This document shows positions 2,263 through 6,243 of a stretch of 9,131 nt of DNA, one piece after another. Origin of the DNA: an uncultured Lachnoanaerobaculum sp. (lineage in GTDB: Bacteria; Bacillota; Clostridia; Lachnospirales; Lachnospiraceae). The stretch lies in contig CALISX010000172.1 in assembly GCA_938041725.1 (NCBI GenBank), positions 1-9,131 of the forward strand, given 5' to 3'. The translations under genes were made by a program, and so were the position numbers. The first letter of the stretch is position 1. Each line of letters opens with the position of its first letter. The notes under the pieces were generated by a model. It saw only the letters and a list, made by a program, of their open reading frames with translations. It had not been told where the DNA came from and did not search any database.

Positions 2263-3325
2263 AAATTTAGAGGATATCATTGTACATTATGACGAGGTGA
2301 TGGCTGCACTGGGAAGTCCCGATGTGGCCAATGATCAGAACCGCTTTCGAAAGCTGATGAAGGAGCAGTCAGATCTGGCGCCTTTGGTAAACACCTATAA
2401 GGACTATAAGCTGGCCCTTTCTGACCAGGAGGATGCCCTGGCGCTTTTGGAAAGTGAAAATGACGAAGAGATTCGGGACATGGCCAAGCAGGAGCTGGCA
2501 GAGGGAAAGGAAAGACAGTCCCTTTTGGAGGACCAGCTGAAGCTTCTTTTGCTGCCCAAGGATCCCAATGATGACAAAAATATTATGCTGGAGATCCGGG
2601 CAGGAGCGGGAGGGGATGAGGCAGCTCTGTTTGCCTCCCAGCTTTACCGGATGTATGTGCATTATGCGGAAAGCCAGCGGTGGAAGGTAGAAATCATTGA
2701 TGTGAATGAAAACGGCATTGGAGGCTTTAAGGAAGTGGTGGCCATGGTTAGCGGAAAGGGCGCCTATTCCAAATTAAAATACGAGTCCGGCGTACACCGT
2801 GTCCAAAGGGTTCCGGAAACAGAATCCGGAGGGCGCATTCACACCTCCACCGCTTCGGTGGCTGTGATGCCGGAGGCGGAGGAGGTGGATGTGCAGATTG
2901 ACATGAATGATGTGCGCATTGACGTGATGCGGGCCAGCGGAAATGGAGGCCAGTGTGTCAATACCACAGATTCCGCTGTGCGTTTGACTCACTATCCCAC
3001 AGGAATTGTAATTTACTCTCAAACTGAAAAAAGCCAGCTGCAAAACAAGGATAAGGCCTTTGCCCTGCTGCGGTCTAAGCTCTATGAAATAGAGCTGGAA
3101 AAGCAGCAGAGCAAGGAGGCAGCTAACAGAAGGAGCCAAATCGGAACCGGGGATCGTTCGGAAAAGATCCGCACCTACAATTATCCCCAGGGCCGGGTGA
3201 CGGATCACCGCATTAACCTGACCCTGTATAAGCTGGATAAAATTATTAATGGAGACATTCAGGAGCTGATCGACGGATGTATCGGAGCGGATCAGGCCGC
3301 CAAGCTGGCCCGGCTGAATGACTAA
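2255..3325 (+). CDS. prfA: Peptide chain release factor 1 (RF1)
   Basis: RF1 recognises UAA and UAG in the ribosomal A site and triggers hydrolysis of peptidyl-tRNA. This 356-residue protein has the normal RF1 length. The tripeptide anticodon region reads PET (187-189, within [14 protein letters not shown]), the RF1-type PxT motif rather than the SPF of RF2. The catalytic GGQ lies at 231-233 in the context [14 protein letters not shown]; Cys234 stands where E. coli has His, a variant I recall as common in Clostridia. The N-terminal coiled helical domain (about 1-105) precedes the core beginning [15 protein letters not shown] (112-126). AGAGGA (2244-2249) inside prmC serves as ribosome binding site, and the start overlaps the end of prmC. 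There is no in-frame TGA as found in autoregulated RF2 genes. Confidence 0.98.
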
Positions 3326-3336
3326 AGGAGAGGAAC

Positions 3337-4362
3337 ATGGAGAAAAAAGATCTTGACTGGAGCAATATCGGATTTAGATACCGCACAACGGATTACCGTT
3401 ATGTTTGTCACTACAAAGAGGGAAGATGGCAGCCGGGAGGGCTGATTACAGATCCCAATATCCAGTTGAATGAATGTGCCGGTATTCTCCAGTATTGCCA
3501 GGAGGTGTTTGAGGGATTGAAGGCCTATACCACAAAGGATGGTAGAATTGTCGCCTTCCGTCCGGACCTGAATGCAGAGCGGATGTATCATTCTGCCCAG
3601 TGGCTGGAGATGCCCCCTTTGCCTCCAGAGGTTTTTTTGGAGGCAGTTGATCAGGTGGTAAAGGCCAATGCCCCCTGGGTTCCCCCCTTTGGCAGCGGTG
3701 CCAGTTTGTATATCCGGCCTTATATGTTTGCTTCCTCTCCTGTTATTGGGGTAAAGCCGGCAGAGGAATATGAGTTTCGGGTATTCACCACTCCGGTGGG
3801 GCCTTATTTTAAGGGAGGAGCCAAGCCCATCACCATTACCGTCAGTGATTTTGACAGAGCTGCCCCCAGGGGAACGGGACATATCAAGGCAGGGTTAAAC
3901 TATGCCATGAGTCTTCACTCCCTGATGAAAGCCCATCGGGAGGGCTTTGATGAAAATATGTATTTGGATCCTTCTTCCCGGACCTATGTGGAGGAAACGG
4001 GAGGGGCCAATTTTATTTTCGTTACCAAGGATTATAAAGTGGTAACCCCCAAATCCGATTCCATTCTTCCCTCCATTACCAGAAGGTCTTTGCTGCATGT
4101 GGCCAAGCATTATTTGAATCTGGAGGTGGAGGAAAGGCCGGTGAAGTTTTCCGAGGTGAAGGACTTTTTGGAGGCAGGACTTTGCGGAACCGCCGCAGTG
4201 ATTTCCCCTATTGGAAGAATCTGCAGCCGACAGGAGGTGATCTCTCTTCCCAGCGGTATGGAGACCATGGGAGAGATTACCAAAAAGCTGTATGATACTC
4301 TTACCGGGATTCAGCTGGGAGAGCTAAAGGCACCGGAGGGCTGGATCCGCACTATTTTGTAA
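3337..4362 (+). CDS. ilvE: Branched-chain amino acid aminotransferase, class IV PLP enzyme
   Basis: The enzyme transfers the amino group between glutamate and the 2-oxo acids of leucine, isoleucine and valine, the last synthetic and first degradative step. The 341-residue length and motifs fit the longer, BCAT2-like (eukaryotic-style) subgroup: QEVFEGLKAY (55-64), FRPDLNAERM (74-83), SLYIRPYMFAS (123-133), GHIKAGLNYA (181-190) with K184 as the probable PLP Schiff-base lysine, YVEETGGANFIFV (217-229) and CGTAAVISPIG (283-293). It starts 11 nt after prfA with AAAGGAGAGG (3324-3333) as a strong ribosome binding site overlapping the prfA stop, so it probably shares the prfA transcript. A hairpin follows the stop. 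Its link to release-factor genes is positional only. All expected catalytic residues are visible. Confidence 0.95.
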   Translation: MEKKDLDWSNIGFRYRTTDYRYVCHYKEGRWQPGGLITDPNIQLNECAGILQYCQEVFEGLKAYTTKDGRIVAFRPDLNAERMYHSAQWLEMPPLPPEVFLEAVDQVVKANAPWVPPFGSGASLYIRPYMFASSPVIGVKPAEEYEFRVFTTPVGPYFKGGAKPITITVSDFDRAAPRGTGHIKAGLNYAMSLHSLMKAHREGFDENMYLDPSSRTYVEETGGANFIFVTKDYKVVTPKSDSILPSITRRSLLHVAKHYLNLEVEERPVKFSEVKDFLEAGLCGTAAVISPIGRICSRQEVISLPSGMETMGEITKKLYDTLTGIQLGELKAPEGWIRTIL

Positions 4363-4423: not shown

Positions 4424-5107
4424 ATGAATAGAAGTATAGCAGGCGGTATTCTTTTAGCCGCCGGTATTTTTTTATCTGCCTGCGGTGCAGGCAATGTAAC
4501 AGAATCTGCCCAGGACAGTACAGTGGCAGCGGTGCAAAGCAGCGAAACCGTCACAGAGCGTCAAAGTGCAGGAAATCAGGAAACCTCAGAGGCAGCAGTC
4601 ACTGAGGGAGAGACAACGGAAGCTGCTGCCTCTGAGGAAGAATTTGGCCCCATTCGAAATATTGCGCCCTTTAATACCAAGACCATTGAGGGGGATGCTT
4701 TTACAGAGAAAAATCTGGCAGACTATGATTTAACCATGGTCAATGTTTTTGCCACCTGGTGCGGCCCATGTGTTGCAGAGATGCCGGAGCTGGAAAAGCT
4801 GCATCAGGAGATGTCCGGACAAAAATTCAATATCCTGGGGGTCTGCCTGGATGCAATGGATATGGGAGGAGAAAATCCGGATGCTATTCAAAAGGCCAAG
4901 GACCTTCAGAGCAAGCTTGGTATCACCTACCCTATCGTGATTCCAGACTCCACAGCCCTGAATGGGAGATTGATCGGTATCATGGCCATTCCGGAAACCT
5001 TCTTTGTGGATAAAAATGGAAAGATTGTGGGAGATACCTACAGTGGAGCCAGGTCCATGGAACAGTGGAAAGAGATTGTGGAAAAGGAAATTGCAAACCT
5101 GCAGTAG
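4424..5107 (+). CDS. TlpA-like thioredoxin-fold lipoprotein
   Basis: A 227-residue probable extracytoplasmic thiol-disulfide oxidoreductase. The N terminus is a lipoprotein signal peptide: positively charged start, hydrophobic core, lipobox LSAC with Cys20 as the lipidation site. Residues about 24-73 are a Ser/Thr/Glu/Ala-rich linker typical of surface lipoproteins. The TlpA/redoxin domain follows (about 75-227), with NVFATWCGPCVAEMPELEKL containing the CXXC pair C113/C116, the DxxGGENPDAIQKA insert region, and the cis-proline segment IPETFFVDKNGKIVG (about 188-202). The role could be reduction of exported proteins or a peroxide/redox defence step. No CcdA/DsbD-type membrane electron donor is encoded in this window. 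GAGGAGAG (4408-4415) precedes the ATG. There is no obvious terminator directly after the gene, so transcripts may run into the downstream repeat region. Confidence 0.88.
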   Translation: MNRSIAGGILLAAGIFLSACGAGNVTESAQDSTVAAVQSSETVTERQSAGNQETSEAAVTEGETTEAAASEEEFGPIRNIAPFNTKTIEGDAFTEKNLADYDLTMVNVFATWCGPCVAEMPELEKLHQEMSGQKFNILGVCLDAMDMGGENPDAIQKAKDLQSKLGITYPIVIPDSTALNGRLIGIMAIPETFFVDKNGKIVGDTYSGARSMEQWKEIVEKEIANLQ

Positions 5108-5118
5108 CCTTTTAAAGC

Positions 5119-5174
5119 CATACCGCTGTTCATACCTTAAATACCGTTATTCATACTTTTTTCATGCTTTTTAT
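5119..5174 (+). repeat. Short phased CATAC repeats upstream of a promoter
   Basis: Five degenerate units follow head to tail: CATACCGCTGTT (5119-5130), CATACCTTAA (5131-5140), ATACCGTTATT (5141-5151), CATACTTTTTT (5152-5162) and CATGCTTTTTAT (5163-5174). Spacing of 10-12 bp is about one helical turn, which would place them on one DNA face immediately upstream of and into the -35 region of the promoter at 5161-5191. They could be regulator sites, a curved UP-like element, or low-complexity drift. Confidence 0.35.
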
Positions 5175-5191
5175 CACTTACCTGCTATAAT
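5161..5191 (+). promoter_or_regulatory. Extended -10 promoter driving the repeat region
   Basis: TGCTATAAT (5183-5191) is a perfect extended -10 (TGnTATAAT). A -35 is poor; TTCATG (5161-5166) lies 19 bp upstream, which an extended -10 can tolerate. Transcription would start near 5198 and run right, away from tlpA, into a region with no protein gene, ending at the terminator at 5746-5773. The consensus match is the best of any promoter in the window. Confidence 0.6.
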
Positions 5192-5395
5192 CATACTTGT
5201 AAGAGCGATGGCCGAGATGATACATCGGACAGTGTCACAGAGACACATAGGAGTGATAAACATAGTTTGTACTACAGGTTGTGTCGTTGTGATGTAGGCT
5301 TATTAATTGTTTGAGTGTTAGGAAGATGCCCAAGGGGGGAAAGGAGTGCAGAAAATTAGAGAGAGTAGGGTGTTTAAGTGCGGCAAACCAATGGT

Positions 5396-5710
5396 AGAGT
5401 GATATAGACTGTTAGAGTGATATAGGATTTAGAGTGATTGGTTAAGGATGCAGTGATATAGGTTATTAGAGTGAAGCATTAGAGTGATATAGGATTTAGA
5501 GTGATTGGTTAAGGATGCAGTGATATAGGTTGTTAGAGTGATACAGGATTTAGAGTGGTAGACGCAGTGATATAGGTTGTTAGAGTGAAGCGTTAGAGTG
5601 ATACAGGTTGTTAGAGTGAGATGTTAGAGTGATATAGGATTTAGAGTGATTGGTTAAGGATGCAGTGATACAGGCTGTTAGAGTGAAACAGGAAAAGTGA
5701 TATGGGAGTT
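5396..5710 (+). repeat. Tandem array of about 19 degenerate AGAGTGATATAGG repeats
   Basis: Units of 13-21 bp start with AGAGTGA or AGTGA. The commonest form is AGAGTGATATAGGATTT (at 5414, 5481 and 5626; 5535 differs by one base). Others are AGTGATATAGGTTGTT (5519, 5566; near-copies 5452, 5664), AGAGTGAAGCRTT (5468, 5582) and a 21-bp unit with core TTGGTTAAGGATGC (5431, 5498, 5643). A higher-order unit of 67 bp is visible, and one 47-bp stretch is identical at 5412-5458, 5479-5525 and 5624-5670. By hand count, 5401-5700 has about 99 G and 13 C, an extreme strand asymmetry. Decayed copies reach back to about 5250 (GGAGTGATA 5250-5258, GTGATGTAGG 5289-5298) and forward to 5742. Units are too short and contiguous for CRISPR. 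Confidence 0.95.
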
Positions 5711-5745
5711 AGAACAGGGCCTTTAGAGTGGTGGGCCTTGGGAAT

Positions 5746-5773
5746 AAAAAAGCGGGGGATGCCTCGCTTTTTT
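5746..5773. terminator. Strong bidirectional intrinsic terminator
   Basis: AAAAAAGCGGGG (5746-5757) pairs with CCTCGCTTTTTT (5762-5773) with one G-T pair and a 4-nt loop (5758-5761). The A and T tracts flank a GC-rich core, so the structure works on both strands. It ends the rightward transcript of the repeat region and, on the minus strand, the Rrf2 gene whose stop lies 26 bp away at 5800. It therefore insulates the array from antisense read-through. Confidence 0.92.
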
Positions 5774-5799
5774 ATATGGAAGTGCTGCGGAGCGCATCC

Positions 5800-6243
5800 T
5801 TAAGGGATGGGCTCCACAGTTCTTTTTTTTCGACGAATGGAAAGTTCGTCTTCCATCAGGTCTAACAGGGTCACATTGTCCACCACATTATTAATGGCGG
5901 TTTCAATTTTTTTGAACAGATTCTGGGTGACGCAGGATCTGGAGCGTTCACAAATTCCATCCATATCCAGACAATGCACTGGTGCCAAGGACCCCTCCAT
6001 TACCCGAAGAATTTCCCCTACGGAATAGTCCTTTGGGGCTCTGGTAAGAATATATCCCCCCTGGGCACCCCGGATGCTTTTTACCAGTCTGGCTTTGGAC
6101 AGGGTTGATACAATCTGCTCCAAATATTTTTCAGAGATCCCCTGGGATCTGGCCACCTGATTGATTTTGGTAGGAGAGCCAGGATTTAAACCGAACTCCA
6201 CCATCATTTTCAGTGCATATCTGCCCTTCGTAGAAATTTTCAC
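5800..6243 (-). CDS. Rrf2 family transcriptional regulator, IscR-like with three cysteines
   Basis: A 147-residue DNA-binding regulator. MKISTKGRYALKMMVEF at the N terminus and the winged helix-turn-helix (about 26-66: INQVARSQGISEKYLEQIVSTL, then LVKSIRGAQGGYIL) are typical of Rrf2. Cysteines C91, C98 and C104 (C-x6-C-x5-C) lie where IscR binds a [2Fe-2S] cluster (C-x5-C-x5-C in E. coli), so it probably senses Fe-S status, redox or nitric oxide; CymR-type cysteine regulation is less likely. The start is GTG at 6243-6241, chosen because GGGAGG (complement of 6250-6255) lies 6 nt upstream and the family N terminus begins there. It is monocistronic, ends at the bidirectional terminator, and is divergent from the ArsC-like gene. 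No iscS/nifU or suf gene is adjacent, although such genes are frequent neighbours of these regulators. Confidence 0.92.
   Translation of the reverse strand: MKISTKGRYALKMMVEFGLNPGSPTKINQVARSQGISEKYLEQIVSTLSKARLVKSIRGAQGGYILTRAPKDYSVGEILRVMEGSLAPVHCLDMDGICERSRSCVTQNLFKKIETAINNVVDNVTLLDLMEDELSIRRKKRTVEPIP

Follow-up and report, generated by a model that had tools for sequence, protein, structure and literature searches.

A predicted non-coding RNA with tandem units complementary to the seed of a conserved, predicted small RNA in Lachnoanaerobaculum and relatives

Gene and sequence features of the array locus

The window, by which we mean the whole stretch of 9,131 nt that was analyzed, carries the gene order ilvE-tlpA-array-rrf2, which combines both arrangements known from relatives. 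An ilvE-like class IV aminotransferase gene (3337-4362, + strand; Pfam Aminotran_4 in the window, G190 and G249) is followed by a tlpA-like gene for a thioredoxin-fold lipoprotein (4424-5107, + strand; Pfam AhpC-TSA and Redoxin), which lies upstream of the array, and an rrf2-like regulator gene (5800-6243, - strand; Pfam Rrf2) is convergent to the array. The TlpA-like protein has one near-identical relative (99%), on a JGI metagenome contig; its further relatives among the matches listed are at most 60% identical.

Between tlpA and rrf2, a non-coding sponge RNA of ~578 nt is predicted from the sequence (5198-5775, + strand). The extended -10 reported in the initial annotation is present as TGCTATAAT at 5183-5191 on the + strand, with no match to a -35 element, and the reported terminator is likewise predicted to fold, as a hairpin with A-tract and T-tract at 5744-5775 on the same strand, where it could serve both convergent transcripts. 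A simple consensus scan for promoters and terminators reported neither the extended -10 nor the hairpin; absence of the promoter from such a scan would fit an activator-dependent promoter. The claim that no open frame crosses the region stood insofar as no frame spans it and stops break all six frames of 5108-5800, but a 97-aa ORF (5004-5297), in a frame different from that of tlpA, overlaps the first 100 nt of the predicted RNA.

The predicted RNA opens with ~200 nt of mixed sequence outside the array, which occupies 5395-5733 on the + strand. The tandem repeats, first put at about 19, are real and number 20: AGTG occurs 20 times between 5398 and 5727 on the + strand, 11 times in the form AGTGATA, with start-to-start distances of 12-31 nt, while the whole window holds 47 copies on the + strand and 15 on the - strand. 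Tandem Repeats Finder (TRF) resolved the array at 5411-5713 into 4.3 copies of a higher-order 67-bp unit. The predicted RNA contains 8% C and 33% G and folds slightly better than its shuffles (z -1.59). The judgement that known RNA classes do not fit was borne out, in that Rfam covariance models gave no match to the window up to E 1 and the array lacks the characteristics of CRISPR. A CRISPR array was rejected since the units follow one another without spacer-sized gaps and no Cas family was found among ten window proteins. A viral origin was also rejected, as viral contigs yielded 10 stretches with one motif match each and 1-3 AGTG per 200 nt, and no array.

Arrays and promoters in related genomes

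Relatives of the locus were found by scanning genome contigs with the Rrf2 protein, and the best 80 of 548 were kept. Five of these best 80, all named Lachnoanaerobaculum, contained at least three motif matches (with up to two mismatches) within 400 nt, and two further relatives in the same set, L002 and L007, contained two. Within 400 nt, AGTG additionally occurs 11 times in L002, which is Lachnospiraceae oral taxon 107, and 4 times in L007. Arrays face the rrf2 counterpart in the five Lachnoanaerobaculum genomes and in Lachnospiraceae oral taxon 107 (L001-L006). The initial annotation had counted absence of the array from this locus in all close relatives against its proposal, but the six nearest rrf2 loci carry arrays.

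In L001-L006, two successive units face rrf2, a short RNA and then a long array RNA, each with its own boxes and -10 upstream and a hairpin downstream. The long array RNAs measure 258-412 nt and the short RNAs 118-138 nt in five of the six loci; the short RNA of L004, for which there was no terminator match, was set at 180 nt. On the reverse complement of L003, the 5' part of the short RNA is found twice (near 3146 and 5216, ~2 kb apart) with a transposase-like frame in between, which gives the appearance of an insertion that interrupted the short RNA gene and left a piece duplicated; the extra copy has the second box only. Two further genomes carry the array elsewhere. In G190 it directly follows the ilvE-like gene and the end of its terminator lies 4.4 kb ahead of the small RNA described below, and in G249 it likewise directly follows the ilvE-like gene, ~4.0 kb from the small RNA; the rrf2 neighbourhoods of both genomes contain no array.

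Array RNAs of different lineages have little in common beyond the repeat unit. The motif recurs in relatives with other spacing and other flanks, between a promoter of the same form and a terminator, which argues against the repeats acting as DNA, in the manner of protein binding sites, or being neutral tandem duplications. The 67-bp higher-order duplication of the window copy would suit such a reading, but the motif is also the complement of an independent conserved gene, as set out in the next section, and we find the reading scarcely credible.

Upstream of the -10 in the window lies a double direct-repeat box, GTTCATACCT-N11-ATTCATACTT (5128-5158, + strand; 21 bp start to start), a putative LytTR-type activator site. 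The distance from this double box to the -10 is 27 bp in the window, in G190 and at 12 of 12 promoters of the six relatives, and 28 bp in G249; the 21-bp distance between the two boxes is shared by all of them. When the six genomes were searched for the box with up to one mismatch, 10 matches were obtained, nine at array-type promoters and one in G002. At L193 (G002:C16:44200-48200), near 1981 on the - strand, a gene for a predicted secreted protein is preceded by a double box with a -10 at the usual spacing and is a possible protein-coding member of the same regulon.

With LytTR-regulated RNAs the array RNA shares a promoter that lacks a good -35 and is preceded by two direct repeats. All eight genomes with the small RNA contain LytTR genes, with one each in G001, G003 and G004; the LytTR protein of G001 is a response regulator by Pfam. 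In the available text of two papers (PMC2838878, PMC4227749), VirR and AgrA are described as binding two direct repeats just upstream of their promoters. From the form of the box, which resembles these repeats, with LytTR genes present in all eight genomes, we surmise that a LytTR-type activator would probably switch the array RNA on. At L191, L192 and L248, the gene that directly follows the conserved LytTR response regulator gene encodes a predicted secreted protein; the start region in G190 reads AGAGTGATAATATAGGAG, which resembles an array unit.

Complementarity between the array and a predicted small RNA

The window unit TTAGAGTGATATAG, a 14-mer, was used with up to one mismatch as a query against the six rrf2-type whole genomes. 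It gave 25 matches, six of them exact and one exact per genome. None of the six exact matches lies within an array; they form one conserved locus, antisense to a small gene, at which a small RNA of 107 nt is predicted. Promoter hexamers TTGCAT and TATTAT are present in 6/6, and the 3' end is a strong hairpin. Nucleotides 1-77 are identical in the six genomes, as are 100 of the 107 positions overall. In the predicted fold, a 5' hairpin is followed by another on GUGCAUUAUGCAC, then by the unpaired stretch UCCUAUAUCACUC and finally by the terminator hairpin, and UCCUAUAUCACUC is the complement of the array unit; nt 55-68 are predicted to be unpaired with a probability of 0.98-1.00. Four pairs of the terminator helix are changed on both sides in a six-row alignment that includes two rows from other lineages. 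Rfam models gave two weak matches up to E 5 at the small-RNA loci L101-L106, neither overlapping the small RNA, and assignment to an Rfam family was rejected for the window and the small RNA alike, both being without a covariance-model match. The exact core pattern of the small RNA had no match in viral contigs.

The small RNA was found in eight genomes in total (G001-G006, G190 and G249), and its seed is identical in all eight. With up to three mismatches allowed, a 27-nt core was present in six of 295 relatives of G005, which are G001-G006, and in one of 61 each in the G249 and G190 sets, namely in these genomes themselves; the three sets of relatives overlap. Among the 397 genomes of the family of G005, TTAGAGTGATAYAGG occurs in six (G001, G005, G006, G190, G249 and G289), of which G289 was rejected as a carrier since the surroundings of its copy differ from the small RNA. 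A covariance model of the small RNA matched 14 of the 397 genomes at E up to 0.01. In G001, G005, G006, G190 and G249 the match had E 2e-19 or below; the other nine (E 4.6e-4 to 0.0086) were rejected, their 10 loci being, by eye, hairpins without the seed. The same model gave no match in the 9,131-nt window itself. In G190 the small RNA is flanked by a dihydroorotase-like gene and a ClpB-like gene.

All eight genomes found with the small RNA also have an array, six of them beside rrf2 and two, G190 and G249, behind ilvE. A strict array pattern matched six of 22 genomes and 0 of the 14 without the small RNA, and it misses the arrays of G190 and G249. A loose pattern matched 92 of 397 genomes, 87 of them among the 392 without a detected small RNA, and loose AGTGAT repeats are common in other genomes. 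Going by this pattern, of whose matches few were inspected (L231, L232, L237, L243 and two stretches of G305), arrays may also exist in genomes without the small RNA. At L244 (G305:C26:1500-3600), four AGTGATAYA copies lie between reading frames, and the small RNA was not found in G305; these copies are probably an unrelated short repeat.

We compared the window array with the small RNA of the relatives. The 7-nt complements from 13 array RNAs (that of the window, six long and six short) cluster on nt 51-72 of the small RNA, and those elsewhere on it are stray, single or double. In a control with 500 dinucleotide shuffles, in which 7-mers were counted without overlap and a long match could thus score several times, the window RNA had 25 seed complements against a shuffled mean of 2.99, and none of the 500 shuffles was as high. 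The long RNAs of the relatives had 8-13 (0.83-1.67 shuffled; 0/500 as high), and the short RNAs had 3-5 (0.26-0.49 shuffled; at most 2/500 as high). The window RNA is predicted to pair in 22 stretches of eight pairs or more; 19 of these reach 10 pairs, 10 reach 12 and one extends to 19, though its units are not independent because the array partly arose by 67-bp duplication. Of the 22 stretches, 19 fall within the array, and the longest site, at 5409-5427 on the + strand, is perfectly complementary over 19 nt to nt 55-73 of the small RNA. Stretches of at least eight pairs number 7-13 in the six long arrays, 11 in G190, 7 in G249 and 3-4 in the short RNAs.

Neither the 19-nt match nor the 24 eight-nucleotide sites of the window was reached by any of 4907 null pieces. 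The null pool includes the antisense of the relatives' own arrays, which produces high null values in some rows and makes the test stricter. In G249, the longest Watson-Crick match of the array is 9 nt, equalled by 232 of 1481 null pieces, and its six eight-nucleotide sites were matched by one of the 1481; the G249 array is a weak case of complementarity to the small RNA. The short RNAs of L001 and L003 also have a longest match of 9 nt, with 105 and 87 of 1481 null pieces as long. For 19 of the 22 window sites, duplex energies of -11.8 to -32.3 kcal/mol were predicted, compared to -5.2 to -13.4 kcal/mol for reversed units. The sites are as open as the rest of the array (0.51 versus 0.49), with no gain in accessibility, which speaks against the sponge reading, as does the slightly better folding of the window RNA relative to its shuffles.

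CsrB and RsmZ carry many copies of a short motif and titrate a regulator, the protein CsrA, which they bind through GGA, the CsrA binding core. The array resembles them in its multi-copy short motif, and GGA is found 16 times in the window RNA, 13 times in G190 and 10 times in G249, as might be expected if the repeats sequestered a protein such as CsrA. However, GGA is not a conserved repeated element of the six long relatives (1-7 copies per 258-412 nt), the conserved unit core GAGTGATA does not contain it, and the unit is fully accounted for as the complement of a conserved RNA, so we regard a CsrB-like function as very improbable. In contrast to CsrB and RsmZ, whose partner is a protein, the array would have an RNA as its partner. 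The initial annotation had left both options side by side, sequestration of proteins or of other RNAs. The second is supported, the unit being complementary to a conserved predicted small RNA, and the first is weak in view of the scarcity of GGA in the six long relatives.

The same complementarity would be expected with the direction of control reversed, if the array RNA were the effector, acting on other mRNAs or a protein, and the small RNA were its antagonist or a trigger of its decay. The array RNA has a regulated-looking promoter of its own, and in three of the six relatives (L001, L003 and L005) the long arrays have extra matches to the hairpin-1 loop of the small RNA (2, 2 and 4 sites; 7, 4 and 1 of 500 shuffles as high), perhaps a second contact. 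However, the array RNAs vary between lineages and the seed is fixed in 8/8, as would suit a small RNA that acts in trans and has a flexible decoy, and one small RNA facing 7-22 sites per long array has the stoichiometry of a sink. We consider this reverse order of control unlikely and prefer the reading of the array RNA as a sponge for the small RNA.

Proposed function, known systems and candidate targets

From the sequence comparisons as a whole, we judge it likely that 5198-5775 encodes a non-coding sponge RNA whose ~20 units, complementary to the seed of the predicted small RNA, titrate that RNA. An activator binding the direct repeats, probably of the LytTR kind, would turn on the array RNA, whose many sites would pair with the seed UCCUAUAUCACUC. 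Drawn off its mRNA targets in this way, the small RNA, with a seed that could pair with AGGAG-type ribosome-binding sites, would leave these targets derepressed. Mechanistically, target mimicry is the simplest reading, with the sequence to which the small RNA pairs being presented many times over by the array RNA.

Animal microRNA sponges of the ciRS-7 type are eukaryotic, circular and microRNA-based; they are unrelated to the array, and share with it the plan of a dedicated decoy on which a single small RNA finds many sites. We see about an even chance that the locus represents a new bacterial module, in which a small RNA with a frozen seed would have a sponge gene dedicated to it, holding up to ~20 target mimics in tandem and under the control of a LytTR activator of the quorum-sensing type. 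Such a module would be a bacterial counterpart of the animal many-site microRNA sponges, with the sponge free to change its length, number and place. In the mostly open literature on small RNAs of this genus, repeat sponges and LytTR-linked sponges, we found no comparable case.

The bacterial small-RNA sponges named in the available portions of two sources mostly belong to other transcripts or offer few sites (PMC8216469, PMC12721325). RosA of Bacillus subtilis, which sponges RoxS and FsrA, is described in the accessible text as the first confirmed Gram-positive sponge (PMC8216469). Like the predicted array RNA, it is a stand-alone Gram-positive non-coding RNA whose binding parts are G-rich and C-poor, and, as we propose for the array RNA, it sequesters the C-rich seed of small RNAs and is expressed under a transcription regulator. 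Unlike the array RNA, RosA is ~229 nt long, has three G-rich regions and is under CcpA (PMC8216469), whereas in the array RNAs one unit provides 7-22 sites and the promoter has a direct-repeat double box; the two are likened by description only. Other bacterial sponges are reviewed elsewhere (PMC12721325, available in part). As proposed for the array, in the ChiX trap and other enterobacterial sponges a decoy pairs with the seed of the small RNA, but those named in the accessible text are operon parts, phage-derived RNAs or products of tRNA precursors or mRNAs, whereas the array would be a dedicated gene with a tandem array.

With respect to its promoter, the array resembles VR-RNA of Clostridium perfringens and RNAIII of Staphylococcus aureus, regulatory RNA genes that also lie behind a promoter with two direct repeats (PMC2838878, PMC4227749, both available in part). 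There the repeats are bound by the LytTR-type proteins VirR and AgrA, whereas for the array we infer the binder. VirR boxes are 7-8 nt apart in these accounts, compared with 11 nt between the two 10-mers of the array promoter. In contrast to the role proposed for the array RNA, VR-RNA and RNAIII are themselves regulators of target genes, and the accessible parts of these papers do not describe them as repeat arrays. A dedicated gene with 7-22 sites, found in several lineages with an invariant seed and one promoter design, would be a high-capacity threshold titration device, and the arrays would be a natural series for measuring the effect of site number. The analysis also uncovered a predicted small RNA outside all Rfam families, with its seed, a proposed sink and a candidate regulator, in culturable species.

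The complement of the seed contains ATAGGAG, so mRNA ribosome-binding sites are likely targets of the small RNA. Among the matches listed, the target pattern ATATAGGAG..ATG was roughly as common as the control in the eight genomes. Genes that we take to be mscL carry ATATAGGAG in G190 and G004, and the sequence is absent from the mscL-like gene of G249. Among the 57 loci scored from the matches listed, the longest match before a long gene precedes a peptidase-like gene, in G249 only (L201, L212; G249:C13). There, 13 perfect pairs extend over the ribosome-binding site of that gene, the first in a predicted Flp-type pilus operon. The peptidase-like gene scored 25.2 bits with Pfam Peptidase_A24, below the cut-off of 26.5, and the three genes downstream match RcpC/CpaB, T2SSE and T2SSF above the Pfam cut-off. 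We take this ribosome-binding site, in one genome, as a candidate target and as a lead only. Further GAGTG motifs lie upstream of the ribosome-binding site of this first gene.
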